NCBI RefSeq assembly: GCF_963675585.1
Contig: NZ_OY776414.1
Span: 1,901,001-1,965,000 of the forward strand
Origin: an uncultured Draconibacterium sp.
Lineage (GTDB): Bacteria > Bacteroidota > Bacteroidia > Bacteroidales > Prolixibacteraceae
Reading direction: 5' to 3'
DNA: 64,000 nt
Shown here: positions 22,335-60,738 of the stretch, piece after piece
Numbering within the stretch: the first letter of the stretch is position 1
Layout of the letters: each line of letters begins with the position of its first letter
Made by a program: the position numbers and the translations under genes
The notes under the pieces: model-generated
Databases searched by the model: none
Told to the model about the DNA's origin: nothing
Seen by the model: the letters and a program-made list of their open reading frames with translations, nothing else

Positions 22335-23269
22335 TGCTTCGCCTTTCTCTCTTCTGATTTCTGAATAATATTGTCCAGAATACCTTGATTTGTTTTAAAA
22401 ATTGTACCGTGTTTGTGTCCTTCCGGCAGATGTACTTTACTCGAAATATCAGTAAATGTTTTAAAGTCTGATGTTTCAACAGCATCGTATGTTTTTTTAC
22501 GATATGCGTCAAAAAATATTAGCCATTTATTCTCCAGTCTCAAAACCGTTGGGCCTTCCGTAAAGTTATCTGTAAAGGGTTCCGATATATTTTCCCATGG
22601 GCCAAGCGGAGTTTTACCGAAGGCCACTTTTATATTTCGTTCCGGACGTGTATTGTCTTTCAAAACCAATACATAATCTCCTTTAGCACGTTTTACTATG
22701 ACACAATCAATTACACTAAAACCGGGATCAAGAAATAATTTCGTATCAGAAAAGGTCTCAAAATCTTTGGTAGTTGTGTAATACATCCTGTGATTGTTTC
22801 TCTCTTCTTCCATTCCCTTTTCAAATAAAAATGGGATGGTTGAAGCCCAAATTATAATGTATTCGTCCTGTTCATCGTCGTAAAAAAGTTCGGGTGCCCA
22901 AACGTTTACCGTAGAAGTATCAAAATCCATTACAGAAACAAACTGCTGTTCCGACCAGTTTACGAGGTCGGTTGAGCTGGCATAACCAAATCCCAAATCG
23001 CCTCGCCACGAAGAAGTCCAAACCATATGAAATGTTCCGTCGGGTCCTTTCACAACCGAAGGATCGCGCATTACTTTCTGCTCACCAATTTCGGGTTTTA
23101 ACCACGAACCACCCAAGTCTTCCCAGTTGTAACCGTCGTAACTGTATGCCAAATACAAACCTTCGTCTGCCGGTTCACGAAAGGTGCTGAACATGTACAC
23201 TTCCTTTTCCTGTTTGCACGAAACAAAAAGTAGAATTACAACCAATGCCAGTAATGATCTCAACTTCAT
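22331..23269 (-). CDS. GH43-like five-bladed propeller lipoprotein
   Basis: A 312-residue lipoprotein. The start chosen is ATG at 23267-23269, which gives MKLRSLLALVVILLFVSC, a perfect lipoprotein signal. The longer frame to 23353 would translate a dispersed repeat and bury that signal. GH43/clan-F-like features are MRDPSVV near the start, VNVWAPELFYD, IDCVIVK and EGPTVLRL, spaced as in five-bladed propeller glycosidases with three acidic catalytic residues. Family members remove arabinofuranose, xylose or galactose from side chains. It ends by overlapping the start of the 1106-residue gene by 4 bases. Confidence 0.7.
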   Translation of the reverse strand: MKLRSLLALVVILLFVSCKQEKEVYMFSTFREPADEGLYLAYSYDGYNWEDLGGSWLKPEIGEQKVMRDPSVVKGPDGTFHMVWTSSWRGDLGFGYASSTDLVNWSEQQFVSVMDFDTSTVNVWAPELFYDDEQDEYIIIWASTIPFLFEKGMEEERNNHRMYYTTTKDFETFSDTKLFLDPGFSVIDCVIVKRAKGDYVLVLKDNTRPERNIKVAFGKTPLGPWENISEPFTDNFTEGPTVLRLENKWLIFFDAYRKKTYDAVETSDFKTFTDISSKVHLPEGHKHGTIFKTNQGILDNIIQKSEERKAKQ

Positions 23270-23295
23270 TTGTTTATGTTTTAGTCTTTTTTTCG

Positions 23296-23340
23296 TTGTC
23301 ATTTCGAAGGAGGAATCCCGAGTATTCGGGAAGAAATCTG
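23296..23340. repeat. Dispersed short repeat (TTGTCATTTCGA...GGAATC type), copy 1
   Basis: The stretch begins TTGTCATTTCGAAGGAGGAA and contains a small hairpin CCCGA/TCGGG (317-330) followed by GAAATCTG. A related copy in opposite orientation is at 60739-60794. Such intergenic palindromic pieces are common in Bacteroidota genomes. It fills most of the gap between the GH43-like and GH140-like genes. Confidence 0.5.
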
Positions 23341-23395
23341 TTTTGTTTGACACAGTTTTCTCCGCATCTTATCGAAAGGACACTTTAATTGTTTA

Positions 23396-27940: not shown

Positions 27941-27943
27941 TTT

Positions 27944-32290: not shown

Positions 32291-32429
32291 TATCCCTTCA
32301 TAAATTTGAAAAACCCCACATTTAGTATTACACATAATTGTGTTTACTTCCCTAGTCAGTAGAATTATTTTTTCTTCTATCTGTTTACCAATCTTTCGAT
32401 TGTAATTATATAGTAATCCTGTTGGCTTT

Positions 32430-34274
32430 CTATTCAGCCAAAGGATCGAAAGTTCCGTTTAACCAACCAATGGTTTGTTCTACAGCCGGGCTTTTCTCAA
32501 TAATAGATGATGGAATTGCAAAAAAGTCGTACAACTCCAGGTAATTGATTTCCTGATTAACTCCAAGATAAATATCGAGTGTTTTGTTCGATTGCAAAAA
32601 ATACTGGTCGGATATTGTTTTGTCATTTAAGTCTAAATGACCATTGTATAGCGCACTATCAATTCTTAATGCCCCGTAAAATGGAGATGACTCATCGTTA
32701 ATCACAGAACTCCAGCCACTTAAAGCCCGGTACGAAAATCCTGTACGATACGTTCCATTCAGTTTTTTTACGTATTCCCCCATGTCTTCGCGGAAAAGTG
32801 TACGACGACGAATATCCCAGTAACGTTTGTTTTCGAATGCGAATTCAACCTGACGTTCAACCATAATTATTTGTCTGAGTACATCCTGAGAGACACCGTT
32901 ATCAATACCGTAGGTATCTCCATTCGATTCAATTCCGGCACGAGCTCTAATCATTCGCACTTTTTCAAGTGCTTCAGCTGTACTTCCAATCTCGTTGGCA
33001 CATTCGGCAAAGTTGAGTAACACTTCGGCATATCGAAGTTCAATCCAGGAGGTACTTGTCTGGCTGATATCTTCGCGTGCAATGGTTGCATCAGAGGCTT
33101 TTTTGTTGTAAAACCCCGAACTTGGAGTTCGGTTTAATTCCAGGCTATTCCTAAAAGCCCAAATATTTGTCTGATCTCTGCCGGTCATATCCCATTCAGA
33201 ACCATTGTAAGCAAGGGTAGCGTAAAAACGTGGATCGCGGTTTTGCCAGTAATAGGTTTCATCGTAACCCGATCCTGCCTGGTTGGTTAATTTACCATTT
33301 GCCATTGGAAACGCCGAAATTAATTGCCAGGTTGGTGTAAAACCTCCGTTACCACCTCCTGAAGGAGGACGCACACTGTTTTCCCAACCATGTGTATAAC
33401 TGGTTCCTGCACCTAAACTAAAACGTTTGTATATAATCGCTTCAACATTATTTAAAACATTGCCGGTAAAAATAGTACCAAAGTCAGGATGTAAATCCCT
33501 TGGAATATTCATATCTGCCAGAATATTGAGAGCTTCATTATTTGCATCGTATGCTCTTTGCCATTTCGCCTGATCGTTAGAAGGATTAAAAAGCGGACTT
33601 GCATAAGTTAAAAGAATACGACCTTTAAATGCAGCTGCTGCCCCACTGGTTATTCTTCCTAAGTCATCGGTTAAGGTCCAATCAACAGGTAATAATGCAA
33701 TTGCCTCATCCAAATCGGCTACAATTTCATTAATTGTTTCCGCAGCACTGCTTCTTGGCACATTCAAATCGTCGTTGTATGGATCCTGAACTGTTTTTAC
33801 AATAGGGATACCTCCGTATAAGCGGGCCATTTCCCAATGGCGCCAGGCTCTGAAAAACAAGGCCTGTCCCATCAATGGAGCTTTCACATCGTCGCTAAGC
33901 GTAGATGCTTCCAAACCTTCAATTGCAATGTTAATGCGTCGAATTAAAGCATATTTGTCTTTGTGCATTACAGTAACAGCGTTAATATCGCTGGCAGTAG
34001 TAAATCCGTATATTAAGCTTGTATACGTTTCATCTGCCGAATATGTCTCGTCAGATAATTGACTATTTGTTCCAAAGTAATCGTTTGGCATGTTCTCGTC
34101 GTACAAATTATTTATGTACAAACCGGCCTGAGCTTCGTCTTCCCAAATTCCTTCGTTTAAAACATTCAAATCATGTTTATCCAAAACGCTTTCGCAGGAA
34201 ACAGCTCCCAAAAGCAGGATGGCAATACCTAAAACAAAAGGAAGAGATTTGATATATTGTGTTATGATCTTCAT
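32430..34274 (-). CDS. SusD/RagB-family surface glycan-binding lipoprotein
   Basis: A 614-residue lipoprotein (LLGAVSC) with the SusD layout: N-terminal LDKHDLNVLNEGIWEDEAQAGLYINNLYDE, TPR-like AFFRAWRHWEMARLYGGIPIV, and the C-terminal half with ELRYAEVLLNFAECANEIG and IIMVERQVEFAFENKRYWDIRR. It is 43 bases downstream of its SusC and would present substrate to it. It differs strongly from the SusD at 6688-8808, so the two uptake systems probably take different pectic fragments. Confidence 0.94.
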   Translation of the reverse strand: MKIITQYIKSLPFVLGIAILLLGAVSCESVLDKHDLNVLNEGIWEDEAQAGLYINNLYDENMPNDYFGTNSQLSDETYSADETYTSLIYGFTTASDINAVTVMHKDKYALIRRINIAIEGLEASTLSDDVKAPLMGQALFFRAWRHWEMARLYGGIPIVKTVQDPYNDDLNVPRSSAAETINEIVADLDEAIALLPVDWTLTDDLGRITSGAAAAFKGRILLTYASPLFNPSNDQAKWQRAYDANNEALNILADMNIPRDLHPDFGTIFTGNVLNNVEAIIYKRFSLGAGTSYTHGWENSVRPPSGGGNGGFTPTWQLISAFPMANGKLTNQAGSGYDETYYWQNRDPRFYATLAYNGSEWDMTGRDQTNIWAFRNSLELNRTPSSGFYNKKASDATIAREDISQTSTSWIELRYAEVLLNFAECANEIGSTAEALEKVRMIRARAGIESNGDTYGIDNGVSQDVLRQIIMVERQVEFAFENKRYWDIRRRTLFREDMGEYVKKLNGTYRTGFSYRALSGWSSVINDESSPFYGALRIDSALYNGHLDLNDKTISDQYFLQSNKTLDIYLGVNQEINYLELYDFFAIPSSIIEKSPAVEQTIGWLNGTFDPLAE

Positions 34275-34317: not shown

Positions 34318-37300
34318 TTAGATTTTAAAATTAAGACCGAAACTGAATGTTTTCAACAGCGGATAAGTGTTATATCTTGCAATGGCATCTTCCTTGTAAT
34401 CAAATGTTTGAATTGGTGACCACAGGTTAGTTCCTACAAAATACACCCGAAGTTCAGGAATACCAATTTTACGCGAAAGGTCTTTTGGTACGTTGTACGA
34501 AATATTTACATTCCTGAGTCGCAGCGAAACCACATCTTTCATCCAAAAAGTAGAAACCCATTGGTTTGAACTTGCATATTGCGGACTTGGGTAAACTGCA
34601 TCCGGATTTTCAGGAGTATAAAAATCAGCCCAAAAAGCCGGAGAACTTTTGGCTACCAAACCATCGGATGTTTCAGAAACACTTGGAACTGTTCGAGCCA
34701 GCTTATCAACGGCCTGATTACGAATTCCATATTCCATGGTCCAGAGTAATTTTACTTTTAAGTCTTTCCAACCACCACCCATCGAAATACTGGTGGGCAG
34801 CATGTGTTTCCATGTAAATTTATCACCCACACGTTCTACATAAGTTTTATCGTATTCGTTAATTACACCATCGGGTTCGAATACGGTACGTGGCTCGCCG
34901 GCACCTGTATTTCCCGGACGGCCAATGTCTTCAAATATCATGGCACCCAAACCTACCGGAGTACCTTCAATGCGATAACCGTGTCCGTAAAGTGCTTCCC
35001 ATTCCGCATTTAACGCATCTAACTGCTCCTGGGTACGAATAAATCCGTGCGAAATAAATCCTTCTTCGCGACCGGCTGCACTGGTACTTTGCCCAATTGG
35101 ATAACGAAAATCTTCAGGAATATATTCGGTTGGTCTTTCAATTACCCTGTTTGTTCCGTAACCAAAAATTGCACTCACATCGTAGGTGATATCATTTGTA
35201 ATTTTTCCGTGATAATTTACCGATGCATCATATCCCCAGGCTTCCAGTCTCCCCAGGTTCTCACCTGGCATTTGTCCCAGACCTGCTGTTTCAGGAAACT
35301 CAACGGTACGTTTGTCCAGAATATCGTATTGGTAAGTATAGTAGGCATCAACAGAAACTCCGATTTTGCTGTCGAAGAATCGCATATCCATCCCCAGGTT
35401 GTGCATTCTCGATTTCTCCCAGGTTACACCCGAACTCACCACATCTGTTTTACCTCCAATTCCAATTCCTCCAACCGGAGAGTCGCCTCCAAACAAATAA
35501 CGATCGCCACTTGTTTTTAATGCATATTGCAATTCGTATTCATAAGCACCAACCGATGCATAACCGGTTAATCCCATTGAGAACCGCATTTTTAAGAAGT
35601 TGACATTCGGGAGGTTGTCTTTTATGAAATTTTCTTCGGAAACAACCCAACCGATCGATGCGGAAGGAAATAAACCGGCACGCTCACCCGGAGCAAACTT
35701 TGTAGTGGTTTCGTAGCGAACAGCCGATTCGAATAAATATTTACTCGCATACGAATAATTTAAACGAAATACACCGCCAAGGTCACCACTTTCACGCATT
35801 GATCCACCTGTAGTTTTTGTTTGAAATGCATTTTGTATTTCCAGTCCATAGGTTTCAATGTTCTCACCTCTGGCCTCGAAAGAATATCCTTCTCCTTCTG
35901 ACTGCTCGTAAGTTAAAAAGGATGAAATATCGTGTTTACCAAACGTACGCGCATAATTTAAACTCACATTTAACTGGTAATTATCGCCATAGCCGTAGGT
36001 TTCGTTAATACGGTTGTTGTTTTGCACCAATCGTACCGGATCTTCTTTTAAGTTATTACTTAACAAGTATTTGTATTCTTCTCCCGGTTGATCGAACAAA
36101 TAAAGATTGTAGGGAACCAAATAATCTTTGTTATAGCTGTGTGATTCTCTTCGGCTGTAGGAAGCAGAAGCTACAAGTCCTTCCACTTTTTCGAAGTCAT
36201 ACGACAAGCGGAAATTAACTGTATTTCCCTTGTCAACCGATTTTTTGTAACTGTTTGTATCAAACAAATACAAAGGATTAAAATCGAGGTTATTGGCTAC
36301 CGGATGTCCGTCGATGTAGGCAGGAACCCATTTCGGGGCCTGAAGAACTTCTTCGAAATAATCTTCCATTGTGTTGGAACCAACACCTGAAATATATGGA
36401 CGTTTGTAGTCCCGGTTATCCAACGATATGGTAATATTCGCCTTCAGATTATCGGTAATATTTGCATCCAGTCCCAAACGATACGAATATTTACCAACTC
36501 CCATATCAGGGAAATTACCTTCGGTATAATTGTAGGTACCGCCGGCAAAATATTTTACCCGGTCAGTACCTCCCGAAATATTAATTGTGTGGCGAGTTAC
36601 CATCGATCGTTGCCAGGTTTCATCTAACCAGTTAAAATTTTGGTCATGCATGGCATCCAATTCGGTTTGCGACATTACATACCTCGATGAATCACCTGTA
36701 CTTTTATAACGGGCATTAATCATCCTTCCCAAATCGTAGGCACTTAGCATTTCGGTTTGCATGGTTGCATCAGATATACCGTAACTACCCGAGTAACTAA
36801 CTTTCAATTTCCCTTCTTTTCCACGTTTTGTTTTAATTAATACAACACCGTTTGCACCTTTACTTCCGTAAACTGCTGCCGAAGCATCTTTTAAAACCGA
36901 GAAACTCTCTATTTCCGATGGATCCAGTACATCAAATTCTTCCTGTGAAACTTCGAAACCATCAACAATGTACAAAGGTGCCGGATCTTTTGCTCCTTCT
37001 CCGGCATTTCCAAAAGTAGTTTCGGCACGAATACGAATCCGTGTAGAAGCACCGGGGTTACCAGTTGGTTGAGCAGGAGAAACAGAAACCCCGGCTAATC
37101 TTCCTTCCAATAAATTGGTAAGATTTGTAACAGGAATATCTTCTATTTCATCGGCAGAAATACTGGCAATCGATCCCAGCAAATTTGCACGCTTTACCTC
37201 GCCGTAACCAACAACAACAACCTCTTCAAGATCGGTAACATCTTCTTGTAAAACAACATCGATAAGGGTACGGCCATTCACAGGAATTTCCTGTTTTACA

Positions 37301-37596
37301 AAACCGATAAAAGATACCTGCAAAGTTTCGTTTGCACCTACTTTTATTGAATACTCCCCATCAACATTGGAAACAGTACCGTTGGTTGTATTTGCCACCA
37401 CAACATTAACCCCAACCATGGTCTCTCCTTTGGTGTCGGTTATTTTACCGCTAACCGTAATCTGACCAGTGTTCTGCGCTAACAGTACAGAAGCAAATAA
37501 TAACTGGGCAATGAAGACCAACAAGACAATAGCAGCAGTCTTTAAGTATTGCCGAATTTCATTTTTTAATAATCTTTTCTCAAGTATAGTTTTCAT
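34318..37596 (-). CDS. SusC/RagA-family TonB-linked outer membrane transporter
   Basis: A 1092-residue transporter: long signal-bearing N-terminus (about 1-41), carboxypeptidase-regulatory-like domain (about 45-118, SGKITDTKGETMVGVNVVV), TonB-box-like DLEEVVVVGYGE (122-133), plug with YIVDGFEVSQEEFDVL and KDASAAVYGSKGANGVVLI, then the barrel ending FSFGLNFKI. It imports oligosaccharides delivered by the SusD at 32430. The upstream gap of 78 bases shows no clear promoter, so it may be cotranscribed with the T9SS protein and symporter before it. Confidence 0.95.
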   Translation of the reverse strand: MKTILEKRLLKNEIRQYLKTAAIVLLVFIAQLLFASVLLAQNTGQITVSGKITDTKGETMVGVNVVVANTTNGTVSNVDGEYSIKVGANETLQVSFIGFVKQEIPVNGRTLIDVVLQEDVTDLEEVVVVGYGEVKRANLLGSIASISADEIEDIPVTNLTNLLEGRLAGVSVSPAQPTGNPGASTRIRIRAETTFGNAGEGAKDPAPLYIVDGFEVSQEEFDVLDPSEIESFSVLKDASAAVYGSKGANGVVLIKTKRGKEGKLKVSYSGSYGISDATMQTEMLSAYDLGRMINARYKSTGDSSRYVMSQTELDAMHDQNFNWLDETWQRSMVTRHTINISGGTDRVKYFAGGTYNYTEGNFPDMGVGKYSYRLGLDANITDNLKANITISLDNRDYKRPYISGVGSNTMEDYFEEVLQAPKWVPAYIDGHPVANNLDFNPLYLFDTNSYKKSVDKGNTVNFRLSYDFEKVEGLVASASYSRRESHSYNKDYLVPYNLYLFDQPGEEYKYLLSNNLKEDPVRLVQNNNRINETYGYGDNYQLNVSLNYARTFGKHDISSFLTYEQSEGEGYSFEARGENIETYGLEIQNAFQTKTTGGSMRESGDLGGVFRLNYSYASKYLFESAVRYETTTKFAPGERAGLFPSASIGWVVSEENFIKDNLPNVNFLKMRFSMGLTGYASVGAYEYELQYALKTSGDRYLFGGDSPVGGIGIGGKTDVVSSGVTWEKSRMHNLGMDMRFFDSKIGVSVDAYYTYQYDILDKRTVEFPETAGLGQMPGENLGRLEAWGYDASVNYHGKITNDITYDVSAIFGYGTNRVIERPTEYIPEDFRYPIGQSTSAAGREEGFISHGFIRTQEQLDALNAEWEALYGHGYRIEGTPVGLGAMIFEDIGRPGNTGAGEPRTVFEPDGVINEYDKTYVERVGDKFTWKHMLPTSISMGGGWKDLKVKLLWTMEYGIRNQAVDKLARTVPSVSETSDGLVAKSSPAFWADFYTPENPDAVYPSPQYASSNQWVSTFWMKDVVSLRLRNVNISYNVPKDLSRKIGIPELRVYFVGTNLWSPIQTFDYKEDAIARYNTYPLLKTFSFGLNFKI

Positions 37597-38761: not shown

Positions 38762-40336
38762 TCAGTTCCTGATTTTATTTTCCCTCTTTAATTTTAACCA
38801 ACCATAGTAAGTTAATGTTTCATCTACCGGTTTTTCTTTAAAAATATAACTGGCCACAATTCCCACAAACATCAGCACCAAATGGCTGTACACGCCAATC
38901 ATATATTTATGCTGGTTAAAATTCAAATTGCCCAGATCGAGTAGCAATATTTTAGTATCGCCAAATGTCATTGGTGTAGAAGACAACAGGGCGTAAAGGG
39001 TAAATAAAATACTTGCCAGTATTCCGAAATAAATTGCTTTTTTATTTACTCTTCGGCTAAAAATACCCAGCAAGAACATTCCGGCAATTCCGCCCGAAAA
39101 GATGGAATAAAGTGTAAAAATTATTCCGAGCACCCCGGTTCCTCCGGCATGAATGTAGAACATGGCAACTGCAATTGCTCCAACTCCGGCCAAAACGATA
39201 AACATCCTACTCAGGAACATCTGCTTTTTTTCAGACGTATTTGGTCTCCATCGCAAATAATAATCTTCCAGACAAATGGCAGAAAGACAATTTAAATCAG
39301 AATCGAGACTGGAAAAGGCAGCAGCAATAAGTGCCGACAGAATTAAACCAATAACACCAACAGGTAATTTTGTGGTAATAAAAATCGGGAATACTTCTTC
39401 CGGTTTTATATCGGCAGGCAGCGGGCTACCTGTAATTTTATAATAAGCAAACAATGCTGTTCCGATAAACATAAACAAAGCCCAAACCGGCACACTAAGC
39501 AGCACTCCAATCAACGATGCTTTTATCGCTTCCTTGTCTGATTTTGCGGTTAAATAACGCTGTATAATTGTTTGATCGGTTCCGTATTTCTGAATGGCAT
39601 AAAATATACCGTTTAATGCCATTACCCAAAAAGTAAGATTTACAAATTCCAGATCGAAGGGGCCAAAACCAATTCGTCCGTTTTCCATTGCAACCTGCCA
39701 AATGGCGCCCGGTCCGCCTTCCACCGAAAACAAAAGGATACCCAATGAAACCAAACCACCGGCAATTAGCATAAATCCCTGAATAACATCGAGCCAGATA
39801 ACAGCTTCCATACCACCCAGCATGGTTATTAATACCACAACAATTCCTATAATCAAAACAATGTAAACAGTGTCAACACCAGTCATACCAGACAAAGCCA
39901 GCGAAATGATGTAAAAAACCGTTCCCATTTTTGCGAAATGATTTAATACAAAACCAAGTGATGCATACAAACGGGCAAGAAAACCAAATCTTCGTTCGAA
40001 ATATTCGTAGGCACTTAAACGAATTACTTTTCGGAAAAGAGGTACAATAATTCCAACAATAAAAACAAGTACCAAAGGCACCATTAATCCCTGCACCAAA
40101 CGAATCCAGTTTGAAGAATACCCCTCGCCCGGATAAGCTAAAAATGTTACACTACTAATAAGTGTTGCCAAAATAGACATACCAATTGCCCACGAAGGAA
40201 TTTTACCGCCTGCTTTAAAATAGTTGCCGGTATCTTTCTGATTCTTCGAGAAACGTAATCCAACAACAATTGAAACAACAAACGTTGCTATTATTATAGC
40301 ATAGTCGACAATATGTAACGAAATGGTTCTATCCAT
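38762..40336 (-). CDS. Sodium:solute symporter (SSS family)
   Basis: A 524-residue inner-membrane protein with about 13-14 hydrophobic segments and the SSS pattern DTGNYFKAGGKIPSWAIGMSILATLISSVTFLAYPG near the start, plus AAAFSSLDSDLNCLSAICLEDYY later. Members couple sodium entry to uptake of sugars, sialic acid or organic acids. Its start overlaps the stop of the acid-sugar kinase by 8 bases, so the two are translationally coupled. The substrate is likely the acid handled by that cassette, such as a 2-keto-3-deoxy aldarate, a tetronate or an unsaturated uronide. Confidence 0.88.
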   Translation of the reverse strand: MDRTISLHIVDYAIIIATFVVSIVVGLRFSKNQKDTGNYFKAGGKIPSWAIGMSILATLISSVTFLAYPGEGYSSNWIRLVQGLMVPLVLVFIVGIIVPLFRKVIRLSAYEYFERRFGFLARLYASLGFVLNHFAKMGTVFYIISLALSGMTGVDTVYIVLIIGIVVVLITMLGGMEAVIWLDVIQGFMLIAGGLVSLGILLFSVEGGPGAIWQVAMENGRIGFGPFDLEFVNLTFWVMALNGIFYAIQKYGTDQTIIQRYLTAKSDKEAIKASLIGVLLSVPVWALFMFIGTALFAYYKITGSPLPADIKPEEVFPIFITTKLPVGVIGLILSALIAAAFSSLDSDLNCLSAICLEDYYLRWRPNTSEKKQMFLSRMFIVLAGVGAIAVAMFYIHAGGTGVLGIIFTLYSIFSGGIAGMFLLGIFSRRVNKKAIYFGILASILFTLYALLSSTPMTFGDTKILLLDLGNLNFNQHKYMIGVYSHLVLMFVGIVASYIFKEKPVDETLTYYGWLKLKRENKIRN

Positions 40337-41510
40337 TATTTAATTCTATTTTATCGGTATTCTTAAAACTTATGTTTTTGGGCCAGGAATAACTACCGGG
40401 TTTTGTTGTTATACAAAGGTTTGGATATTCATCTACCCGCATTTGAATAATCCCAAAATCGAGTTCCTTTACCGGATATAATTTTTCAATATTTAATTCA
40501 CCTAAAATCTGAGATGTTGTTGCACCGCCCTCAATAAACAAATCATCAAGTTCAACATTCAACATTACCTCTTTCACCAATTGTGCCACCAGCTTTTTTA
40601 CGCGCAGTGCTCTGTTTTCTCCCGACGTATTTTCATGGTCAACAGAAATTATAACTTTCTGATTGTTATTTAAAGCATGGAGCACATCTTCAACCCAGTT
40701 CTCAAAATATTCAGGAGCGAAATCCTGTTGAGAATAAACTTCCTCAGGCATATTTTTAGTGGCTATTCCGCAATTCTCCATCCAATCAAGTACTTCCCTG
40801 GTTTTTGGGAAAGCACTTCCCGACACCAGGAGAGTTTTTTCGCCTGTCAAAACCGGCTCAACCGAAGCATTCAGTTGAATGGAGAACTCTCTGCTTAGCA
40901 GTATATCAAAAAAGCCCGATCCACCTGCTGCAACTGTTGTATTATCAATGTATTCAGACCATTGTTTAAGTTCTGTACTGTTGGTAACGTTTCCAATTAT
41001 CAACCCACTTTGAGGTAAATCCTGAGTTACCGATTTTGATATAACATCGTAAGTATTCCGGCCAATAATTTCAATTACAGATGATGATTTTACCGGAAAA
41101 TCGGGATCGTTTACAAATTGTGTTTTGTTTAGCGGAATTGAATCGATGGTGTAATTTCCATTTTCAATTATTCTACCCAAAAAAGGATTTCCGGCAACAA
41201 CGATGGCTCTTTTTCTTCCACAAGCCGACATTTGCGCCAGTAATTCTTCGGCAATATTTCCTCTAAGTACAGAATCCAGTTTTTTGTAAATGTATTGCGG
41301 TTTAAGTTGAATAAGCTTTTGTGTTATTTTAGCAACTTCCTGCGCTGCATCATTTGCTGTTAAAGAACGAGTGTCGGTAGCAATTATTAACAGATCTACA
41401 TCAGAAGCATCAATTACTTCTGTCTCAATACGAACCTCAAGGCCGTATTTTAATCCAATCCCCCCTATTTCCGCTGCACCTGTAAAATCATCTGCAATAA
41501 CTGCAATCAT
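40329..41510 (-). CDS. Four-carbon acid sugar kinase (DUF1537/OtnK-DtnK family)
   Basis: A 393-residue cytoplasmic kinase with the family marks ADDFTGAAE (6-14), YKKLDSVLRGN (75-85), GNPFLGRIIENG (107-118) and the C-terminal FIEGGATTSQIL nucleotide-binding segment. DUF1537 kinases phosphorylate D-threonate, D-erythronate or 3-oxo-tetronates at the 4-hydroxyl. The following partner decides the route: next to a PdxA2 homologue, as here, the pair is the one shown to convert D-threonate or D-erythronate to dihydroxyacetone phosphate. Another family member phosphorylates 3-oxo-isoapionate, but then a RuBisCO-like protein is expected nearby and none is present. Confidence 0.85.
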   Translation of the reverse strand: MIAVIADDFTGAAEIGGIGLKYGLEVRIETEVIDASDVDLLIIATDTRSLTANDAAQEVAKITQKLIQLKPQYIYKKLDSVLRGNIAEELLAQMSACGRKRAIVVAGNPFLGRIIENGNYTIDSIPLNKTQFVNDPDFPVKSSSVIEIIGRNTYDVISKSVTQDLPQSGLIIGNVTNSTELKQWSEYIDNTTVAAGGSGFFDILLSREFSIQLNASVEPVLTGEKTLLVSGSAFPKTREVLDWMENCGIATKNMPEEVYSQQDFAPEYFENWVEDVLHALNNNQKVIISVDHENTSGENRALRVKKLVAQLVKEVMLNVELDDLFIEGGATTSQILGELNIEKLYPVKELDFGIIQMRVDEYPNLCITTKPGSYSWPKNISFKNTDKIELNNG

Positions 41511-41529
41511 AATATATCAATTAACAAAA

Positions 41530-42558
41530 TTAATTTTTATAGAGTTTAACGGCATAATTAATTGCATAAACCAAAGCCTCCGGGCTTGCGATTCCGTTAC
41601 CTGCAATTTCAAACGCAGTACCGTGATCAACCGAAGTACGTATTATGGGTAAGCCCAAGGTAATATTTACTCCTTTTACACTTTTCATAGTTCCATTCTT
41701 ATCGTCCCACACAAAACCAATTAATTTAAATGGAATGTGCCCCTGATCGTGATACATCGCAACACAACCATCAAACTTTCCTCCTGCGGCCAAAGCATAC
41801 AATGTATCCGGAGGAAAAGGTCCTTCCACATTAAATCCTTTTTCATTCGCTTCTTTTACGGCAGGAATAATTTCTTTTATTTCTTCGTCTCCAAACAAAC
41901 CTTCATCTCCGGCATGTGGATTTAATCCTGCCACTCCAATCCGAGGATTTTTAATTCCCAGTCTTTTTAATCCTTCATCCAGAATGTGAACAACATCCAG
42001 AATACGATTTTTTTGTACCAGATCGCATGCTTTTCGTAAAGAAACATGTGTACTTACATGAATAACTTTAAGTTTTTCGTCGGCAAGTAACATGGCATAT
42101 TTTGGTGTATTGGTATAGTGGGCGTAAATTTCGGTATGACCCGAAAAATGATGCCCTGCCGTATTTATAGCTTTCTTGTTTATAGGATTTGTAACCGTAC
42201 CATCCACCTCGCCACTTAAGGCCAGTTCAATGGCTTTTACAACCGAACGAAAAGCAATATCGCCGGCACTTGCCGAAATTTGTCCGTATTTAATTGAATC
42301 CGGATTCTCGACATCCAGATTTAAAACGTCAATCTCCCCAAAACGAAAACCGGCTTCGCTTGCATTTGCAATTGCATTAACTTTTAATTCCGATTTAAGT
42401 TCTTCAACAATGCGCAACATAATGGCGGCATTTCCAATTAATAAAGGTTTACAAACCTTATGAACCTCAGCATCTTCAAAAGCTTTAACTGCAATTTCAG
42501 GTCCAATCCCTGCCGGATCGCCCATGGTAACAGCTAATATTGGCTTTGTTTTACTCAT
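41530..42558 (-). CDS. pdxA2: PdxA2-like 4-phospho-D-threonate/erythronate 3-dehydrogenase
   Basis: A 342-residue PdxA-family enzyme: TMGDPAGIGPEI (11-22), then metal ligands His171 (VSTHVSL), His215 (GLNPHAG) and His270 (MYHDQGH), and SVDHGTAFEIAG near the end. PdxA proper serves pyridoxal phosphate synthesis; PdxA2 paralogues beside a DUF1537 kinase oxidise 4-phospho-D-threonate or -erythronate at C3, after which loss of CO2 yields dihydroxyacetone phosphate. The gene lies 19 bases upstream of the kinase and 9 bases after the aldolase, with no other pyridoxine genes near, so the catabolic role is preferred. Confidence 0.82.
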   Translation of the reverse strand: MSKTKPILAVTMGDPAGIGPEIAVKAFEDAEVHKVCKPLLIGNAAIMLRIVEELKSELKVNAIANASEAGFRFGEIDVLNLDVENPDSIKYGQISASAGDIAFRSVVKAIELALSGEVDGTVTNPINKKAINTAGHHFSGHTEIYAHYTNTPKYAMLLADEKLKVIHVSTHVSLRKACDLVQKNRILDVVHILDEGLKRLGIKNPRIGVAGLNPHAGDEGLFGDEEIKEIIPAVKEANEKGFNVEGPFPPDTLYALAAGGKFDGCVAMYHDQGHIPFKLIGFVWDDKNGTMKSVKGVNITLGLPIIRTSVDHGTAFEIAGNGIASPEALVYAINYAVKLYKN

Positions 42559-42567
42559 CTAATAACT

Positions 42568-43473
42568 TTATAAATCCAATGCGTCGCGCATCAGTGCTTT
42601 GTATTTTAATTCTTCGTTGTGTTCCATTCTTAGCATTGGAGGCATAACTTCCGGCGTACACAATCCTTTCAGCGACATCAATACTTTCATTGCCGGAATT
42701 GATTGACTGATATTTCTTCCTTTTTGGCAAAGCGCTGCAATTGCATTAGCCTGCTCCTGCATTTTTTCGGCCATTTCAAAATTTCCGTTCTCACATTCCA
42801 CCACAAGTTGTGCATAAACTTCAGGGACCAGGTTACCAACACTTGGCACAATTCCGTTTGCTCCGTTTTGCATTCCGTAAGCAGACATTGCAGCCCATCC
42901 CACAAGAAAAATAAAGTCGTCACGGTCTTTCCACCTGCTCAACGATTCGCTTAATCTTTCTTTGTTTTGTTCCGAGTCTTTTATTCCGATAATATTATTG
43001 TGGTGACTAAGTTCTTCGGCAATATCCAACGGTATTGAATGATGCGTTGTAGCCGGAATATTGTACAAAAACAGGGGCAATGGAATAGTATCGGCCAGCT
43101 TTTCAAACCATTTCAGCATTTGGGTACCATCCGATGGATAATAATTGGGAACAGTTGCCACAAGTGCGTCAACTCCCAAATCAGCAAACTTTTTCCCTTC
43201 ATCAATCGATGTGAATATCGAGTTGCTTCCAATTCCGGCCAATAAAGGTTGTTTCCCGCCGAGGGCTTTTACCGATGTATTTATCAGGTCGGTTTTTTGG
43301 GAAGATGAAAGTGAAGAAGCTTCACCGGTTGTTCCAAGCACAAAAGGTTTAACATCATTCTCGATAAACGAATTCAAGATGACAGAAACTGCATCAGAAT
43401 CAATGGAATAGTCAGCTTTAAACGGACTAACCATTGGAACAATTGCACCTTTGTATATATTTTTAAACTCCAT
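42568..43473 (-). CDS. DHDPS-family class I aldolase for a 2-keto-3-deoxy acid
   Basis: A 301-residue barrel of the dihydrodipicolinate synthase/N-acetylneuraminate lyase family. GTTGE (47-51) binds the pyruvate carboxylate, Tyr137 (LYNIPATT) is the proton relay and Lys165 (GIKDSEQN) forms the Schiff base. Members cleave 2-keto-3-deoxy acids into pyruvate plus an aldehyde, or run in reverse. A lysine-biosynthesis role is unlikely in this catabolic operon. Placed with a reductase, an acid-sugar kinase and PdxA2, the expected aldehyde is a C4 acid, pointing to 3-deoxy-heptulosarate (DHA) as substrate. KDG-type substrates remain possible. Confidence 0.8.
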   Translation of the reverse strand: MEFKNIYKGAIVPMVSPFKADYSIDSDAVSVILNSFIENDVKPFVLGTTGEASSLSSSQKTDLINTSVKALGGKQPLLAGIGSNSIFTSIDEGKKFADLGVDALVATVPNYYPSDGTQMLKWFEKLADTIPLPLFLYNIPATTHHSIPLDIAEELSHHNNIIGIKDSEQNKERLSESLSRWKDRDDFIFLVGWAAMSAYGMQNGANGIVPSVGNLVPEVYAQLVVECENGNFEMAEKMQEQANAIAALCQKGRNISQSIPAMKVLMSLKGLCTPEVMPPMLRMEHNEELKYKALMRDALDL

Positions 43474-43475
43474 AG

Positions 43476-44657
43476 TTACGATGCTTTCATATAAATATAG
43501 ATGGCGTTCATCAATGTTATTTCACGAACATTGTTTTTTAGCAATCGTTGTATTTTCATTGCCGAGTAGGCCATTTCTTCTATTTCAATATTGGGGATGT
43601 TTAACTGCGACAACTTTGCCGGTATTCCGAAATGACGAATAAGTTCACGTATCTTTTCAATACCTAACAGGGCTGTTTCTTCGTTATCCATTCCGTCAGA
43701 AACACCAAGTGCACGACCAACATTTGCATATTTTTCAATTGCCTCCTGTAAATTATATTCCATTACAAAAGGCAATAAAAGCGCATTTGAAACGCCATGA
43801 GCAATTTTGTATTTACTACCAAGCGGGTAAGCCAATGCATGCACTGCAGCTGTATTTACCGGACCAAGACACATTCCGCCATACATGCTGCCTAGCGCAA
43901 CTTTTTCGCGGGCGGCTATATCTTTTCCATTATCAAAAGCTCTTTTCAAATTTCTTCCGATTAGTTTTATTCCCTCAAGGGCCAACAAGTCGGTGTGTGG
44001 ATGTGCAAACTTATTAACGTAGGCCTCGATACAATGTGTTAAGGCATCGAGACCTGTAGCAGCGGTAACGGCAGGAGGAACTCCAATTGTTAACTCAGGA
44101 TCGATATAGGTTGCATCTGTCACAAGCGCAGGGCTAATTACTCCGATTTTAAGATTACTTTCCGGATCGAAAAAAATCGCATTGGGCGACATTTCGCTAC
44201 CGGTACCGGCAGTAGTTGGCAAACAAGCCAGATATACATCGCGCTTTAAAAGAGAATTATCAGCGATGATTTCGCTTACACTTACGGTATTATTTATTGT
44301 TGCAGCAATTAATTTAGCCGTATCCAAAACACTTCCTCCACCAATTCCTACAACACTGTCAGCATTAAAGTCGCGAGCTTGTTTCAAAATTCTCTCGTAA
44401 TCTTCAAACAAAGGCTCGTCCTTTATTTCGTCGTTAAGCAAAACAGAAATCCCAACTTCATTTAGCTTTGCAAGCTCGTTTTCTATTTTTTCTTTTAAAA
44501 CAGAAATGGTAAGTACAAACAGTTTCCGGCAGCCTGTCTTTTCAAAGTCTTCAGCAAATCGGAAAAAGCTTTTGTTCCCAAAAACAACCTTTGATGGATT
44601 TTGAATGGTAATATCATTCACCAGTTCACTTTTCTCTATTAGTTTTGTTAGTTGCAC
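43476..44657 (-). CDS. Iron-containing alcohol dehydrogenase, probable aldehyde reductase
   Basis: A 393-residue group III dehydrogenase, first gene of the acid-sugar cassette. GIGGGSVLDTAK (104-115) binds NAD(P); LPTTAGTGSEMS is the family signature; metal ligands are Asp204, His208 (GLDALTHCIEAY), His273 and His287 (KIAHGVSNALLLP). Relatives include lactaldehyde reductase FucO and hydroxybutyrate dehydrogenases. With the aldolase start 3 bases after its stop, it probably reduces the aldehyde the aldolase releases: threuronate to threonate in the proposed route, or lactaldehyde/glyceraldehyde if the substrate is different. A promoter and two operator copies lie upstream. Confidence 0.85.
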   Translation of the reverse strand: MQLTKLIEKSELVNDITIQNPSKVVFGNKSFFRFAEDFEKTGCRKLFVLTISVLKEKIENELAKLNEVGISVLLNDEIKDEPLFEDYERILKQARDFNADSVVGIGGGSVLDTAKLIAATINNTVSVSEIIADNSLLKRDVYLACLPTTAGTGSEMSPNAIFFDPESNLKIGVISPALVTDATYIDPELTIGVPPAVTAATGLDALTHCIEAYVNKFAHPHTDLLALEGIKLIGRNLKRAFDNGKDIAAREKVALGSMYGGMCLGPVNTAAVHALAYPLGSKYKIAHGVSNALLLPFVMEYNLQEAIEKYANVGRALGVSDGMDNEETALLGIEKIRELIRHFGIPAKLSQLNIPNIEIEEMAYSAMKIQRLLKNNVREITLMNAIYIYMKAS

Positions 44658-44885: not shown

Positions 44886-47800
44886 TTACTTCGCAATATT
44901 TAATTTGCCTTTAGCTACATTTTTACCAGCTTCAAGCACATAAATATATAAACCTTCGTTCAGGTTTTGAGTATTTACTTCAATTTCGTTAGTTCCTACA
45001 CTGAAACGCTCTTTGGTTGAGATTTCAATTTTTTGTCCCATCATATTGAACAACGACAGGCTAACGTCAGCAGACTCGGTTAAAGTAAATCTAACTTTTG
45101 CAAAAGTTTTTGCAGGGTTAGGATATACCAATACATCACTTGCTACTTCAGGACGACTGATACCAGTTGTTCCTCCGGCTCCAAGTACCCATTCCAACGA
45201 ACGTACAACAAGTTCATTAAAATCGTTAGTTGCTTCATCTAATCCTTTTGCATTTGCTGCAAAAATAACGATTCTGTTGTCAGTACTCTGACCAGATGCA
45301 CCTAGTGCAGTTCCTCTTGGAATAGCCCACATCATTGGAGCAGTAATCTCTGCATTCTGGTTTTGTCCCAAAGCGATAGCACCAGGCATATCTGTAGTTA
45401 AATCAATTCCCCATGCATAAATATCGCTACTTGCAGCTGCTGAAGATAAAGACACAACCTGATCTACTGCCAAGCCTTCAGTAATATAATGCGTATTGTC
45501 AAGAACTTTCATTTCCATATTTTCGAGACCAGCAACTCTGCTTTCCTGGAAGTTTACATCGTCGGCTAGCCAATCCCATTTACCTACTTTCACTCCAAAA
45601 CCTTCCATCGAAACCAATGGAATTGGGTAGTCATCATCTTTACCGAAAGGTACTACTTTACTCGAACTTGCAGATTCACCTATCACAAGTGCTTCGTAAG
45701 AAGAATAGTCGTATCCGGCAACCAAATCATTATCATCAACATACATCACATTGTAACCTGTATTTGTCAGGTAATCAACCAATAATGAATCACTAGGCTC
45801 CATTGCATCAGCAGCACCTGCACCTGCATAAAGTACATAAGTAATTGTGTCTTCGTATACCCAGCGAGGGTCTCCCAAACCAAAACCTGCCCATGTTTTG
45901 TCGATAATATTGAAATTACCATTTGCAGGATCAGCCCAGAAATCGTATGAACTTCCTGAATAAATATCACTTCCGTCTCCTAATCCTGGAATAGTATCAC
46001 TTGAATATGCAAAGTCACCCATTACAACACTCTGACTCACTTTAATTTCTGTTGACTCAAGACCTTCTTTTCCTTTAATTGCATAATCTTCTTCGCCGCT
46101 CATATTCCATCCATGACCAACAAGAACTTTCTTCATTGAGAAACCACTGAAGATGTTGTTTTTGCCATCACCGCCACGGTATCTGATCAACTGACGACCT
46201 TTTTCAGGAACAGCATAAATAGTACTGCTTTCAATACTCAACGAATTTGAGTTGTTCTTACTTACAATAAAATATTGGAAATGAGAGAAAGTTGAGTTTA
46301 CAATTGTGATATTATTAACCATTGCATCAGCCAAATCAACAGTTAACAAACCGTAACCATTAATCTGATCCATAACACAATCTTTAACAATGTAGTTTTC
46401 AATAGTTGAAGGTTTGTCTTTAATACGAACTACACCACGTAACGATTCAACTTTACATGATTCAAAAACCAAATCTCCAATACTACTTTCCTTGCTCACA
46501 TTGATAACATAATCGCTATCAAACTCACCATCGATGTGTACGTTTCTGAAAACAATGTATGAAACTGCAGCACCTTCTACCATATCAAAGTTAGAATTAC
46601 TAAAGATATGTGGCATTTTTTCATTCATTGGATCCTTCGAGGTAATGATCATTGATTTATCAAATGCATACCCACCAACGTTGTATGTTTTACCAGGAGC
46701 TAACAAAATAATAGAACTATCTGGAACACCTGCTAAAGTATCGGCCAAACTGTACTCATCTTCAACACCTGATAAATCGATAGTTGTAGCACCGGTACCT
46801 TTTACATGTGCCTGATAAAAAATACGAACACCTGCATCAATTTCCATGTTTGCAAAATAAGAAGCAGCTTCCGGAAGAACTTTAAAATAGAACATCAAGT
46901 CATCGTTCGAAGGAGCATCAGGTGCAGCGATCTCAATACTTTGATTTGACCATTCCATGGTTCCCATATCAAGCGTCGCTTTAGTAATAGTATAAGGAAC
47001 CTCAACAGTATAGTTTCCATTTCCATCATTAGCCATCACTCCCAGAGTATCAGGGAAAGTAAGCATTTTGTTGAATTTGTCCCCTTTGTTGTTTTTATAC
47101 AAATTGTCAGTGATTTTTAATGCTGCAACACGACCCTTAATTTTCAAAGGAAGGCCTACAACAGTGGCTTCGCCAATACTTCCCATAAACGGATCATCTG
47201 CATTACTGAATGTTCCACCGTCCAAACCACCGGCTGGCTCAATCCACACAGGAGCAGCAAACGTAACAGTAATATCATCTACAACAATTGTTGGATCGTA
47301 TTTACCTTCTTCAATTGCAGTACCAGTACCGTCAGTACTGATATAAATATGAACTTCGCTCTGACCATTCAATGCCGAAATTGGCAATCCAAATGTTTCA
47401 GCAACATTTACTGATTTTAATCCACTTCCGGTAGTATAGAAATCCTGAATTGTTGTGTCAGTAGAACTAAACTTTAAACGTAAATCATACGAGGCTGTTT
47501 CGCCTGTATTTCCAACATCGTAAGTATTCATTGTAAACGACAAATCAGAAGTTAATACCTGACCTGCAAGTCGTAAAGCAATATCATACTCCAGTTTTTT
47601 ATAAATACCCGGATGCACACCATAAGCCTGGTTTGCAGGATCACCATCTACATCAAAAACACATGCAGAATAGTTTGACAAGGTATTTTTTGCAGAATCA
47701 GATCCAGTATAAACTTCGCCCCATTTAGCTAGAAGTGCCTGCATAGAATCAACACTTGCTACGTGATTTGGATTTTCGTTACTACGGAAACGGTTACTTC

Positions 47801-48119
47801 TCACCTTAAAGTCTTCATTAGGATTAACTGTCGGAGCATTAGCTGTATCAGCAGCCCAAACTGTAACACCAAAACCTTTACCTGTACGCGCTTTACCCCA
47901 CGAAAAAGTTACAGTAGTATCATCAACCTGAGTCCAGGTACTGGTTGGTTGATCTGTATTAAAGTTAATGGTAAAAACGGCAGACTGAGTCTCAGCATCT
48001 TTTACAAAAGATTGTCCTATGGAAGGATAATTTTCTGGTTTTGCCTGACCATTTGAATAGCCTGCTATAAAGACGAAGCAAGCCATCATTAAAATTTTAA
48101 AAGTAAAATTTTTCTTCAT
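44886..48119 (-). CDS. Large T9SS-exported protein: beta-helix (DUF4957/DUF5123-like) plus flavodoxin-like domain
   Basis: A 1077-residue protein with a signal peptide (about 1-24) and a C-terminal T9SS domain (DVLVYPNPAKTFAKVRF onward, about 1000-1077). The N-terminal third is beta-sandwich. Residues about 437-750 form a short parallel beta-helix (LADTLAGVPDSSIILLAPGK, VIN-V-K-SS-I-DLVFESCKV-type coils) as in DUF4957/DUF5123 surface proteins of pectin loci. Residues about 755-990 look like a ThuA/class I amidotransferase-like alpha/beta domain (TYVLYAGAGAADA, YEALVIGESAS). No catalytic motif is certain. It is probably a surface pectin-binding or lyase-like protein. It is monocistronic, with an operator upstream and a terminator after. 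Confidence 0.65.
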   Translation of the reverse strand: MKKNFTFKILMMACFVFIAGYSNGQAKPENYPSIGQSFVKDAETQSAVFTINFNTDQPTSTWTQVDDTTVTFSWGKARTGKGFGVTVWAADTANAPTVNPNEDFKVRSNRFRSNENPNHVASVDSMQALLAKWGEVYTGSDSAKNTLSNYSACVFDVDGDPANQAYGVHPGIYKKLEYDIALRLAGQVLTSDLSFTMNTYDVGNTGETASYDLRLKFSSTDTTIQDFYTTGSGLKSVNVAETFGLPISALNGQSEVHIYISTDGTGTAIEEGKYDPTIVVDDITVTFAAPVWIEPAGGLDGGTFSNADDPFMGSIGEATVVGLPLKIKGRVAALKITDNLYKNNKGDKFNKMLTFPDTLGVMANDGNGNYTVEVPYTITKATLDMGTMEWSNQSIEIAAPDAPSNDDLMFYFKVLPEAASYFANMEIDAGVRIFYQAHVKGTGATTIDLSGVEDEYSLADTLAGVPDSSIILLAPGKTYNVGGYAFDKSMIITSKDPMNEKMPHIFSNSNFDMVEGAAVSYIVFRNVHIDGEFDSDYVINVSKESSIGDLVFESCKVESLRGVVRIKDKPSTIENYIVKDCVMDQINGYGLLTVDLADAMVNNITIVNSTFSHFQYFIVSKNNSNSLSIESSTIYAVPEKGRQLIRYRGGDGKNNIFSGFSMKKVLVGHGWNMSGEEDYAIKGKEGLESTEIKVSQSVVMGDFAYSSDTIPGLGDGSDIYSGSSYDFWADPANGNFNIIDKTWAGFGLGDPRWVYEDTITYVLYAGAGAADAMEPSDSLLVDYLTNTGYNVMYVDDNDLVAGYDYSSYEALVIGESASSSKVVPFGKDDDYPIPLVSMEGFGVKVGKWDWLADDVNFQESRVAGLENMEMKVLDNTHYITEGLAVDQVVSLSSAAASSDIYAWGIDLTTDMPGAIALGQNQNAEITAPMMWAIPRGTALGASGQSTDNRIVIFAANAKGLDEATNDFNELVVRSLEWVLGAGGTTGISRPEVASDVLVYPNPAKTFAKVRFTLTESADVSLSLFNMMGQKIEISTKERFSVGTNEIEVNTQNLNEGLYIYVLEAGKNVAKGKLNIAK

Positions 48120-48286: not shown

Positions 48287-49282
48287 TTAAGACGAACTTC
48301 GTTTCATTAATTCGGTATTCAATGTCATTTGAATACTTGATCTTTCCGGATCCTGAATTCGCTGAATTAAAAGTTCAACCGCTCTTTTTCCAATTTCCAT
48401 TGCGGGCTGCCTTACCGCTGTTAATGGAGGATTTAGCGAACTCGACCATTGCATATCATCAAAACCTATAATAGCAATATCTTCAGGAATTTTCAACTTC
48501 CATTTCTGAATTGTTTCCAGGGCACCAAGTGTAATCAGGTTGTTACCTGTAAAAATGGCATCCGGCGGATTTGGCAATTTTAATAGCTCGTTACAAAGTT
48601 CTACTCCACTTTCGTGTTTTGAGTTACCAAATTTCACAAGTTCCTCATCATAAGCAATACCGTTTTCTTCCAGCGCCTTACGATATCCTTGTTCGCGCAA
48701 ATTACTCGATGGGATTGCTTTTAAACCAGCAATGTATGCTACTCTCTTATATCCTGATTTAATAAGATAATCGACGGCAGTATATGCTCCGGTTACATTA
48801 TCAACCAAAACAACATCAACATTTGCATCCTTTAATCCTCGATCGACACAAACTACCGGTAAACCATCTTTTACCATTTTCTTAAGCAAAGGGTCATCTT
48901 CGTGGGCAGGAGCTACAATTAAGCCATCAATTGCCTCCGATTGCAGAATTTCGAGGTATAATTTTTCCTTTTTTTCATCTTGCCCAAAATTACACATTAT
49001 AATAGCGTAATTGTTATTGTAGGCAAGTTCTTCAATTCCCCGGAGAACGTCAACATAAAATGGATTTTCAATATCGGGAATAAGCACACCCAAAAGATTA
49101 CTTGAAATACTTTTTGAACGCAAACGTTTTGCAACCCTGCTGGGTTGGTATTTCAGGTCTTTAATTGCCTTGTTTATTTTAGCCCGAGTTGCTTCGTTTA
49201 CATTTCCATTGTTATTCAACACTCTTGAAACGGTGGCAATGGAAACTCCTGCTCGCGTAGCAACATCATTCATACTAGCCAT
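48287..49282 (-). CDS. LacI-family transcriptional regulator
   Basis: A 331-residue regulator read from ATG at 49280-49282. The longer frame begins with TTG at 49303, almost on the predicted transcription start, so it is not preferred. The DNA-binding head is NDVATRAGVSIATVSRVLNNNGNVNEATRAKI with the hinge region LRSKSISSNLLGVLIPDIENPFY. The rest is a periplasmic-binding-protein-like sensor (AIDGLIVAPA, DAIFTGNNLITLGALETI, IAIIGFDDMQWSSSLNPPLTAVRQP), so a sugar or sugar acid should act as inducer. Copies of one palindrome occur in front of its own gene, both flanking operons and the T9SS gene, which makes it the likely local regulator. No sensor kinase hybrid regulator is present in the window. 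Confidence 0.92.
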   Translation of the reverse strand: MASMNDVATRAGVSIATVSRVLNNNGNVNEATRAKINKAIKDLKYQPSRVAKRLRSKSISSNLLGVLIPDIENPFYVDVLRGIEELAYNNNYAIIMCNFGQDEKKEKLYLEILQSEAIDGLIVAPAHEDDPLLKKMVKDGLPVVCVDRGLKDANVDVVLVDNVTGAYTAVDYLIKSGYKRVAYIAGLKAIPSSNLREQGYRKALEENGIAYDEELVKFGNSKHESGVELCNELLKLPNPPDAIFTGNNLITLGALETIQKWKLKIPEDIAIIGFDDMQWSSSLNPPLTAVRQPAMEIGKRAVELLIQRIQDPERSSIQMTLNTELMKRSSS

Positions 49283-49310
49283 GTGCAAAGTAGTTTTAGT
49301 CAATAAGCAA

Positions 49311-60709: not shown

Positions 60710-60738
60710 TAACAATGTAAAAATTGAATGAATGATAA

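Follow-up and report, generated by a model that had tools for sequence, protein, structure and literature searches.

A probable pathway for the rhamnogalacturonan-II sugar DHA, via D-threonate to pyruvate and DHAP, in a five-gene cassette of an uncultured Draconibacterium

The enzymes that dismantle rhamnogalacturonan II (RG-II) are known, and 3-deoxy-D-lyxo-2-heptulosaric acid (DHA) is a rare acidic sugar that is diagnostic of this polymer. This report concerns a cassette of five genes that probably takes DHA to pyruvate and dihydroxyacetone phosphate (DHAP) by way of D-threonate. The cassette lies at positions 38762-44657, minus strand, of a stretch of 64,000 nucleotides (the window) from an uncultured Draconibacterium sp. 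of the Prolixibacteraceae (RefSeq assembly GCF_963675585.1, contig NZ_OY776414.1, positions 1,901,001 to 1,965,000). If the proposal is true, the route fills a gap in the intracellular fate of DHA, and each enzyme gets one defined reaction. An earlier note, made by reading the window's letters, had put this pathway forward and knew of no described route for DHA catabolism; none was found in the openly licensed literature either, among the matches listed.

Several described systems share part of the proposed logic. In the breakdown of galactarate and glucarate by GarL, GarR and GarK, an aldolase splits a 2-keto-3-deoxy aldarate into pyruvate and an aldehyde acid, after which a reductase and a kinase act. 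The same sequence of aldolase, reductase and kinase is proposed here, but the Gar route takes a C6 substrate to a C3 acid where the cassette would take a C7 substrate to a C4 acid, the enzyme families differ, and the cassette adds a PdxA2 dehydrogenase. On the side of the polymer, Ndeh et al. reportedly described in 2017 the RG-II loci of B. thetaiotaomicron that contain BT1020. Those loci have GH143/GH142, GH140 and GH141-type enzymes and SusC/SusD proteins in common with the locus in the window, which differs from them in adding a cytosolic cassette. The closest counterpart of the last two steps is the catabolism of D-threonate to DHAP by the DUF1537 kinase DtnK and PdxA2, reportedly described by Zhang et al. 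in 2016; the two enzyme families and the two proposed reactions are the same. Unlike that route, the cassette adds an upstream pyruvate aldolase and an iron-dependent alcohol dehydrogenase (Fe-ADH), which would turn a C7 diacid into D-threonate within the cell, and its kinase belongs to a short, divergent lineage that scores under the DtnK cut-off. An excerpt of PMC10971088 likewise presents DtnK as a DUF1537 kinase.

The cassette consists of five co-oriented open reading frames (ORFs):

38762..40336, minus strand: SSS-family sodium/solute symporter, proposed DHA importer (SSF 133 bits; TIGR00813 236 bits, cut-off 184)
40329..41510, minus strand: DUF1537 four-carbon acid sugar kinase (KIN) of a short lineage, proposed D-threonate 4-kinase (SBD_N 121, NBD_C 46 bits)
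41530..42558, minus strand: PdxA2-type dehydrogenase, proposed to oxidise and decarboxylate 4-phospho-D-threonate to DHAP (PdxA 357 bits)
42568..43473, minus strand: class I pyruvate aldolase of the dihydrodipicolinate synthase (DHDPS) family (ALDO), proposed DHA aldolase (PF00701 170 bits)
43476..44657, minus strand: Fe-dependent alcohol dehydrogenase, proposed D-threuronate reductase (ADH_Fe_C 186, Fe-ADH 126 bits)

The genes are tightly packed. The symporter and kinase genes overlap by 8 bases, and the gaps that follow measure 19 bases (kinase to PdxA2), 9 (PdxA2 to aldolase) and 2 (aldolase to Fe-ADH). Coordinates and strong Pfam matches confirm the five adjacent, co-oriented genes and the family assignments of the earlier note. 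Read in the direction of transcription, the run Fe-ADH, aldolase, PdxA2, kinase and, as its final gene, symporter is kept in 30 of the 39 loci compared, and because of this the conservation of gene order is far beyond chance (ORFs without a homologue in the window were ignored; one genome entered this comparison and the residue alignments twice, as L067 and L186). Nine loci depart from this arrangement: in L071-L074 and in L198, a planctomycete locus, no cassette aldolase adjoins the kinase, L065 lacks the Fe-ADH, L148 has no adjoining symporter, L193 shows another order, and L197 has broken frames. L193 comes from a metagenome-assembled genome labelled Bacteroides sp. and holds the five genes on a 9.2-kb contig; the GH143 genomes of the Bacteroidota genus g32 are without the cassette.

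In the proposed pathway, a GH143 enzyme would act outside the inner membrane to free DHA, which the symporter would import. The aldolase would form a Schiff base between Lys165 and C2 and cleave the C3-C4 bond; its products would be pyruvate and D-threuronate (2,3-dihydroxy-4-oxobutanoate). Reduction of the D-threuronate aldehyde by the Fe-ADH would yield D-threonate, the DUF1537 kinase would convert D-threonate to 4-phospho-D-threonate, and PdxA2 would oxidise and decarboxylate the latter to DHAP and CO2. D-threuronate is named as the aldehyde because its reduction must give D-threonate, which is a premise of the reading. A Fischer projection, checked by hand, showed that pyruvate and D-threuronate combine to DHA or its C4 epimer. 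The stereochemistry of the earlier note, in which the reduced C4 fragment of DHA is D-threonate, holds up. We infer every substrate in this scheme, as well as the transport step and any regulation, from features that can be observed directly in the genomes, namely gene content and order, conserved catalytic residues and the linkage to GH143.

The individual proteins fit their families well. The window aldolase is a member of the DHDPS superfamily: it matches PF00701, it has the Schiff-base lysine and the tyrosine, and its AlphaFold model (pLDDT 94.5, pTM 0.92) shows the TIM-barrel fold of DHDPS and N-acetylneuraminate lyase. Its Tyr137 and Lys165, which had been pointed out from the single sequence, are invariant in all 34 cassette aldolases aligned. 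In the kinase, D7, D8, K76, K77, D79, S80 and R83 are invariant among 33 aligned sequences. The Fe-ADH gene is assigned as an iron-dependent alcohol dehydrogenase by its domains and its conserved Asp/His site; D204, H208, H273 and H287, presumably the metal ligands, are invariant among 28 aligned sequences. The best structural matches of PdxA2 are PDB entries 2hi1 (dehydrogenase 2, 311.6 bits) and 6e85 (D-threonate 4-phosphate dehydrogenase, 304.5 bits), against 195.4 bits for 1ps7, and it passes the cut-off only of the general pdxA model TIGR00557 (358 bits, cut-off 290). All specific NCBI models for the kinase, the aldolase and the Fe-ADH remain under their cut-offs, so the substrates of the cassette cannot be read from model names. 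For the aldolase, the scores against the cut-offs of the equivalog models are 164/206 bits for DapA, 115/281 for NanA and 100/390 for 2-keto-3-deoxygluconate (KDG) aldolase.

Evidence for a connection with DHA is provided by co-occurrence with GH143. The sample of the home family, taken to be the Prolixibacteraceae (the G072 aldolase is identical to the one in Gaoshiqia sediminis), comprised 140 genomes, of which 31 match PF24067 (the GH143 propeller) and 21 match PF07005 (the kinase). The best PF24067 score per genome is 394-425 bits in 16 genomes and at most 349 bits in 15; the split at 394 bits was chosen after seeing the data. The core of kinase, PdxA2 and aldolase is found in all 16 genomes with at least 394 bits and in 1 of the 124 others (Fisher test 4e-20, kinship ignored), or in 16/31 versus 1/109 if all PF24067 positives are counted. 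These 16 genomes span eight genera, and in the window's own genus the five with a strong GH143 match are the same five that carry the cassette. GH143 and cassette share a contig in 14 of the 16, with match starts 5.3-25.4 kb apart, and lie on separate contigs in G016 and G122. The cassette directly adjoins a GH140-GH43-GH142/143 group in five genomes (G072, G103, G104, G105 and G106). Among the 124 others, 119 have no PF07005 match, and G051, G084, G097 and G110 have a kinase without an adjoining cassette aldolase. Co-occurrence with GH143, which the earlier note had named as a way to check its idea, is thus borne out in the home family, mostly on one contig.

The surroundings of the cassette in the window point the same way. 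A co-oriented run at 589-49303 contains the cassette, three GH28 proteins, two SusC/SusD pairs and a set of RG-II enzymes:

6688-12214: SusC/SusD pair, confirmed by Pfam scan
13011..14906, minus strand: GH141 RG-II-type enzyme (PF21231 204.5 bits)
15913..17025, minus strand: BNR_2 sialidase-like protein (PF13088 325 bits)
19014..22334, minus strand: BT1020 homologue (GH143 propeller and GH142), proposed to release DHA and its L-arabinofuranose (PF24067 420 bits)
22331..23353, minus strand: GH43-like arabinosidase (PF22847 over cut-off, PF04616 slightly under)
23396..24793, minus strand: GH140-type apiosidase (PF13204 374 bits)
30506..32335, minus strand: pectate lyase-like protein (PF00544)
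32430..34274, minus strand: SusD-like protein, read from sequence, kept beside SusC
34318..37596, minus strand: SusC-like TonB-dependent transporter, read from sequence, kept beside the cassette in several relatives

The BT1020 homologue is full-length, matching PDB 5mqr over residues 23-1104 with 1595.9 bits, and about 16 kb separate the end of its gene from the cassette. BT1020 itself we take to be a DHA hydrolase (GH143) and arabinofuranosidase (GH142). Because the run has this homologue and, with a SusC/SusD pair, the GH140 and GH141 enzymes that characterize loci of the BT1020 type, we regard the run as an RG-II locus by which DHA would be released. The earlier note had made its proposal depend on a link to RG-II enzymes elsewhere in this genome, and the cassette lies inside an RG-II locus, whose BT1020 homologue, GH140-type apiosidase and GH141 the note had left unmentioned. 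This setting, together with the co-occurrence and linkage with GH143, supports its reading of the cassette as a DHA pathway.

Outside the home family the association is weaker. The phylum was sampled with 395 genomes. PF24067 reaches at least 300 bits, the threshold used for GH143, in 21 of these; PF07005 is found in 17 and both in 9. The cassette, counted as short kinase, aldolase and PdxA2 only, occurs in 3 of the 21 GH143 genomes (G000, G170 and G172) versus 2 of the 374 others (G213 and G315), with p 0.0012 (kinship ignored). Taking any DUF1537 gene as a proxy for the cassette was tried and rejected: it gave 9/21 GH143 genomes (p 1e-8), but six of these have a long kinase only, without an adjoining aldolase or PdxA2 of the window type. 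Six other kinase-positive genomes are without GH143, and five of them were judged from about 1.5 kb either side of the kinase match; one of the five, G342, has a distant kinase-PdxA2 pair and no aldolase within that distance. A class-wide kinase search matched 2/395 genomes, and it says little about the home family because G000 is the sole home-family positive among the matches listed.

In a second family, that of G170 (79 genomes), the cassette core is found in 6 genomes and PF24067 over cut-off in 5, with 3 shared (p 0.002, kinship ignored). G170 and G903 have the two on a single contig with some 10 kb between them; in G910 the contigs differ. Sulfatases adjoin the cassettes of G170 and G213. 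In terms of loci, sulfatases stand by L145 and L147, an FGE-sulfatase/BNR_2 protein by L147 and a radical SAM/SPASM protein by L148; the data suggest that second-family cassettes are used on sulfated glycans.

A scan of genome contigs, which kept the best 80 among 536 confirmed relatives and is therefore no census, extends the range further. Among these 80 are 14 cassettes from Bacteroidota and Balneolota, including Gaoshiqia, Marinoscillum, Niastella, Mucilaginibacter, Larkinella and Niabella. Nine of the 14 have homologues of the window's RG-II locus in their flanks (one, L186, belongs to the home family); of the remaining five, four have contigs shorter than 10 kb, and L194 (14 kb) shows no such homologues. 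The 66 other loci (L198 and L200-L264) have a PdxA2 in 45 cases, an aldolase homologue in 28, an Fe-ADH in 26 and all four enzyme families in 25. The 28 loci with an aldolase homologue are mostly from Bacillota and Enterobacterales, have transporters of the TRAP, SSF or MFS type, and include a BNR_2 protein in 14 cases. Since they were selected for the aldolase, their own aldolase count is no evidence, and the unselected count is 25/66.

The aldolases of these two sets fall apart in a tree. Those of the Bacteroidota and Balneolota cassettes (lineage A) form a clade with 100/100 support and the others (lineage B) a clade with 99/99 support; a further aldolase group and E. coli YagE stand between them. 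That all cassette aldolases go back to one origin is mildly disfavoured (AU p 0.0255, lnL difference 13.2, long branches present). In lineage B, the kinase of Enterobacter locus L219 scores 546.8 bits, over the NCBI D-threonate kinase cut-off of 450, and because of this the gene adjoining the pyruvate aldolase and the Fe-ADH in the second lineage is probably a D-threonate kinase.

The chemistry of DapA provides a further comparison. DapA joins pyruvate and aspartate semialdehyde, a C4 aldehyde acid, to a 2-oxo-3-deoxy-heptanedioate. It shares with the cassette aldolase the family and fold and, as proposed here, the kind of C4 aldehyde-acid partner and the heptanedioate skeleton, but the cassette aldolase would run in the direction of cleavage. 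By analogy, DHA would be a hydroxylated form of the DapA adduct, and the aldol step would mirror that of DapA. This is consistent with an Arg at the position of the E. coli DapA Arg in 27/27 lineage-B aldolases compared (L239, which has a long branch and no full cassette, was left out).

A number of findings weigh against the proposed pathway. Two of the cassette proteins score below the cut-offs of the models that would name them: the window kinase reaches 123.3 bits with the DtnK model NF047819 (cut-off 450; best stretch residues 2-154), and its PdxA2 reaches 362.9 bits with the D-threonate 4-phosphate dehydrogenase model NF002891 (cut-off 583). The second lineage-B kinase scanned, from L200, likewise has 181 bits with a cut-off of 450. 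Unlike DapA and lineage B, lineage A has no Arg at the DapA position, where 30/34 sequences have Thr; Arg or Lys at position 253, present in 33/34, may bind the carboxylate in its place, as far as the alignment can suggest. Genome G134 has GH143, yet in its cassette (L065) no Fe-ADH lies between the aldolase and the DUF4957 gene, and a different reductase would be needed. Conversely, the cassette core is found without a PF24067 match in G033 of the home family (a genome 86% complete) and in G213, G315 and G909 of the second family. In G172 some 645 kb lie between cassette and GH143, and in 41 of the 66 other loci the set of four enzyme families is incomplete. In the phylum sample, 18/21 GH143 genomes are without the cassette, many of them in genus g32. 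The expected co-occurrence thus fails there in most GH143 holders while persisting in weaker form in the second family, and the cassette is one route among others. Finally, co-occurrence does not separate DHA from other parts of RG-II that share the locus, and the Fisher tests take no account of kinship.

Other substrates would explain some of the same genes. The aldolase could act on 3-deoxy-D-manno-oct-2-ulosonic acid (KDO) to give pyruvate and D-arabinose, with the remaining genes serving something else. KDO is also part of RG-II, according to a portion of PMC12282258, and the fold relatives of the aldolase include N-acetylneuraminate lyases. However, most cassette aldolases have Ala-Ala in place of the Asp-Glu pair found in E. 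coli NanA, and several RG-II loci carry a second, different aldolase. D-arabinose is also not known to lead to a substrate for a DUF1537 kinase and PdxA2. With a better KDO candidate in a second aldolase-symporter pair elsewhere in the genome, this account is unlikely. It is also improbable that the sole role of kinase and PdxA2 is to take up free D-threonate, D-erythronate or, as vitamin B6 salvage, 4-hydroxythreonine, beside an unrelated KDG-type pair of aldolase and Fe-ADH. DUF1537 enzymes are reported in PMC10971088 to act on all three compounds, and pairs of DUF1537 and PdxA2 genes do occur without the cassette aldolase, for instance in G084 (L071). Against this stand the five-gene order, the linkage to GH143 and the recurrence of the four enzyme families together with a different aldolase lineage; vitamin B6 salvage in particular is unlikely because the genome has a separate PdxA gene.

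Another DUF1537-based system, the OiaK/OiaX apiose cassette, apparently also serves a rare RG-II sugar in RG-II loci, and apiose occurs in RG-II. Long DUF1537 kinases at L083:3958-6597 and L151:9541-10947 have OiaK as their best match (417 and 409 of 700 bits), and the former adjoins a best match to OiaX (498 of 700 bits); although all these matches are under cut-off, such long kinases probably represent an apiose cassette built into RG-II loci. That the window cassette itself serves apiose is nevertheless very improbable. Its kinase appears to belong to a different clade and has no match to the OiaK model NF042436 at E 1e-3, six long kinases examined have no adjoining aldolase or PdxA2 of the window type, and the described apiose routes need neither enzyme. 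The two kinases are not substitutes for each other because G044 carries both, 24 kb apart. A final account keeps the pathway but changes its source, either to algal DHA or to a different 2-keto-3-deoxy acid that ends in threuronate, for instance the C4 epimer of DHA. The RG-II enzymes of the window point to the plant polymer instead, and for the window we regard it as quite improbable. Two second-family cassettes adjoin sulfatase genes, and because DHA is also found in the scales of prasinophytes and the theca of Tetraselmis, as stated in an extract of PMC10762512, algal DHA is a plausible source for these.

DHA catabolism via D-threonate therefore remains the preferred reading, and it has practical consequences. 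A DHA pathway could be of use in producing and quantifying DHA, a sugar that lacks standards according to an excerpt of PMC12168206. The names DapA, NanA or lactaldehyde reductase may be wrong for proteins that bear them in such loci. A broader picture is offered tentatively, as somewhat more doubtful than likely: DHA catabolism via D-threonate may be widespread and may have arisen two or more times, each time with a different DHDPS-family aldolase. In Bacteroidota it would reside in RG-II or algal-glycan loci that contain GH143, and a second version would be free-standing in gut Clostridia and plant-associated Enterobacterales, scavenging DHA freed by RG-II degraders with GH143 but without the cassette.

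Other aldolases of the same family were seen along the way. The best solved match of the cassette aldolase is PDB 4xky from B. thetaiotaomicron, deposited as DHDPS (141.6 bits, 31% identity). It has His at the DapA Arg position, as do 2/3 members of one group of second aldolases, and may not be a DapA. Besides a DapA-like gene, the window's genome has a second aldolase-symporter pair outside the window, at C3 ~42.2-44.7 kb (L268:8195-10674). Further DHDPS-family aldolases stand by an SSS symporter or a BNR_2 protein in L081, L152, L160, L192 and L195, several of them RG-II loci. These second aldolases form two separate groups in the tree, and their pairs with symporters are candidates for a KDO pathway.

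Two more genes of the co-oriented run lie beyond the Fe-ADH:

44886..48119, minus strand: DUF4957-DUF5123 protein with a C-terminal sorting domain (PF16318, PF18962), next to the cassette in some relatives, homologue in 6/16 family loci
48287..49303, minus strand: LacI-family regulator, candidate regulator of the cassette (PF00356, PF00532), homologue in 11/16 family loci

Homologues of the BNR_2 protein recur in other loci near cassettes and also near a second aldolase; those near cassettes are spread across Bacteroidota, Bacillota and Pseudomonadota (for example L207:16658-17857 and L224:5009-6187). Several relatives also have, in their RG-II loci, the DUF3826 and DUF6298 proteins found at window 17037-19007 and 24797-28627. 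Adjoining the window's RG-II locus, on the plus strand at 59210-63206, are genes for a GlpK-like FGGY kinase, a fucose-isomerase-like protein and a split transketolase N subunit. Within this trio, an NCBIfam cut-off is passed for glycerol kinase models only; the arrangement is reminiscent of the non-oxidative apiose pathway.

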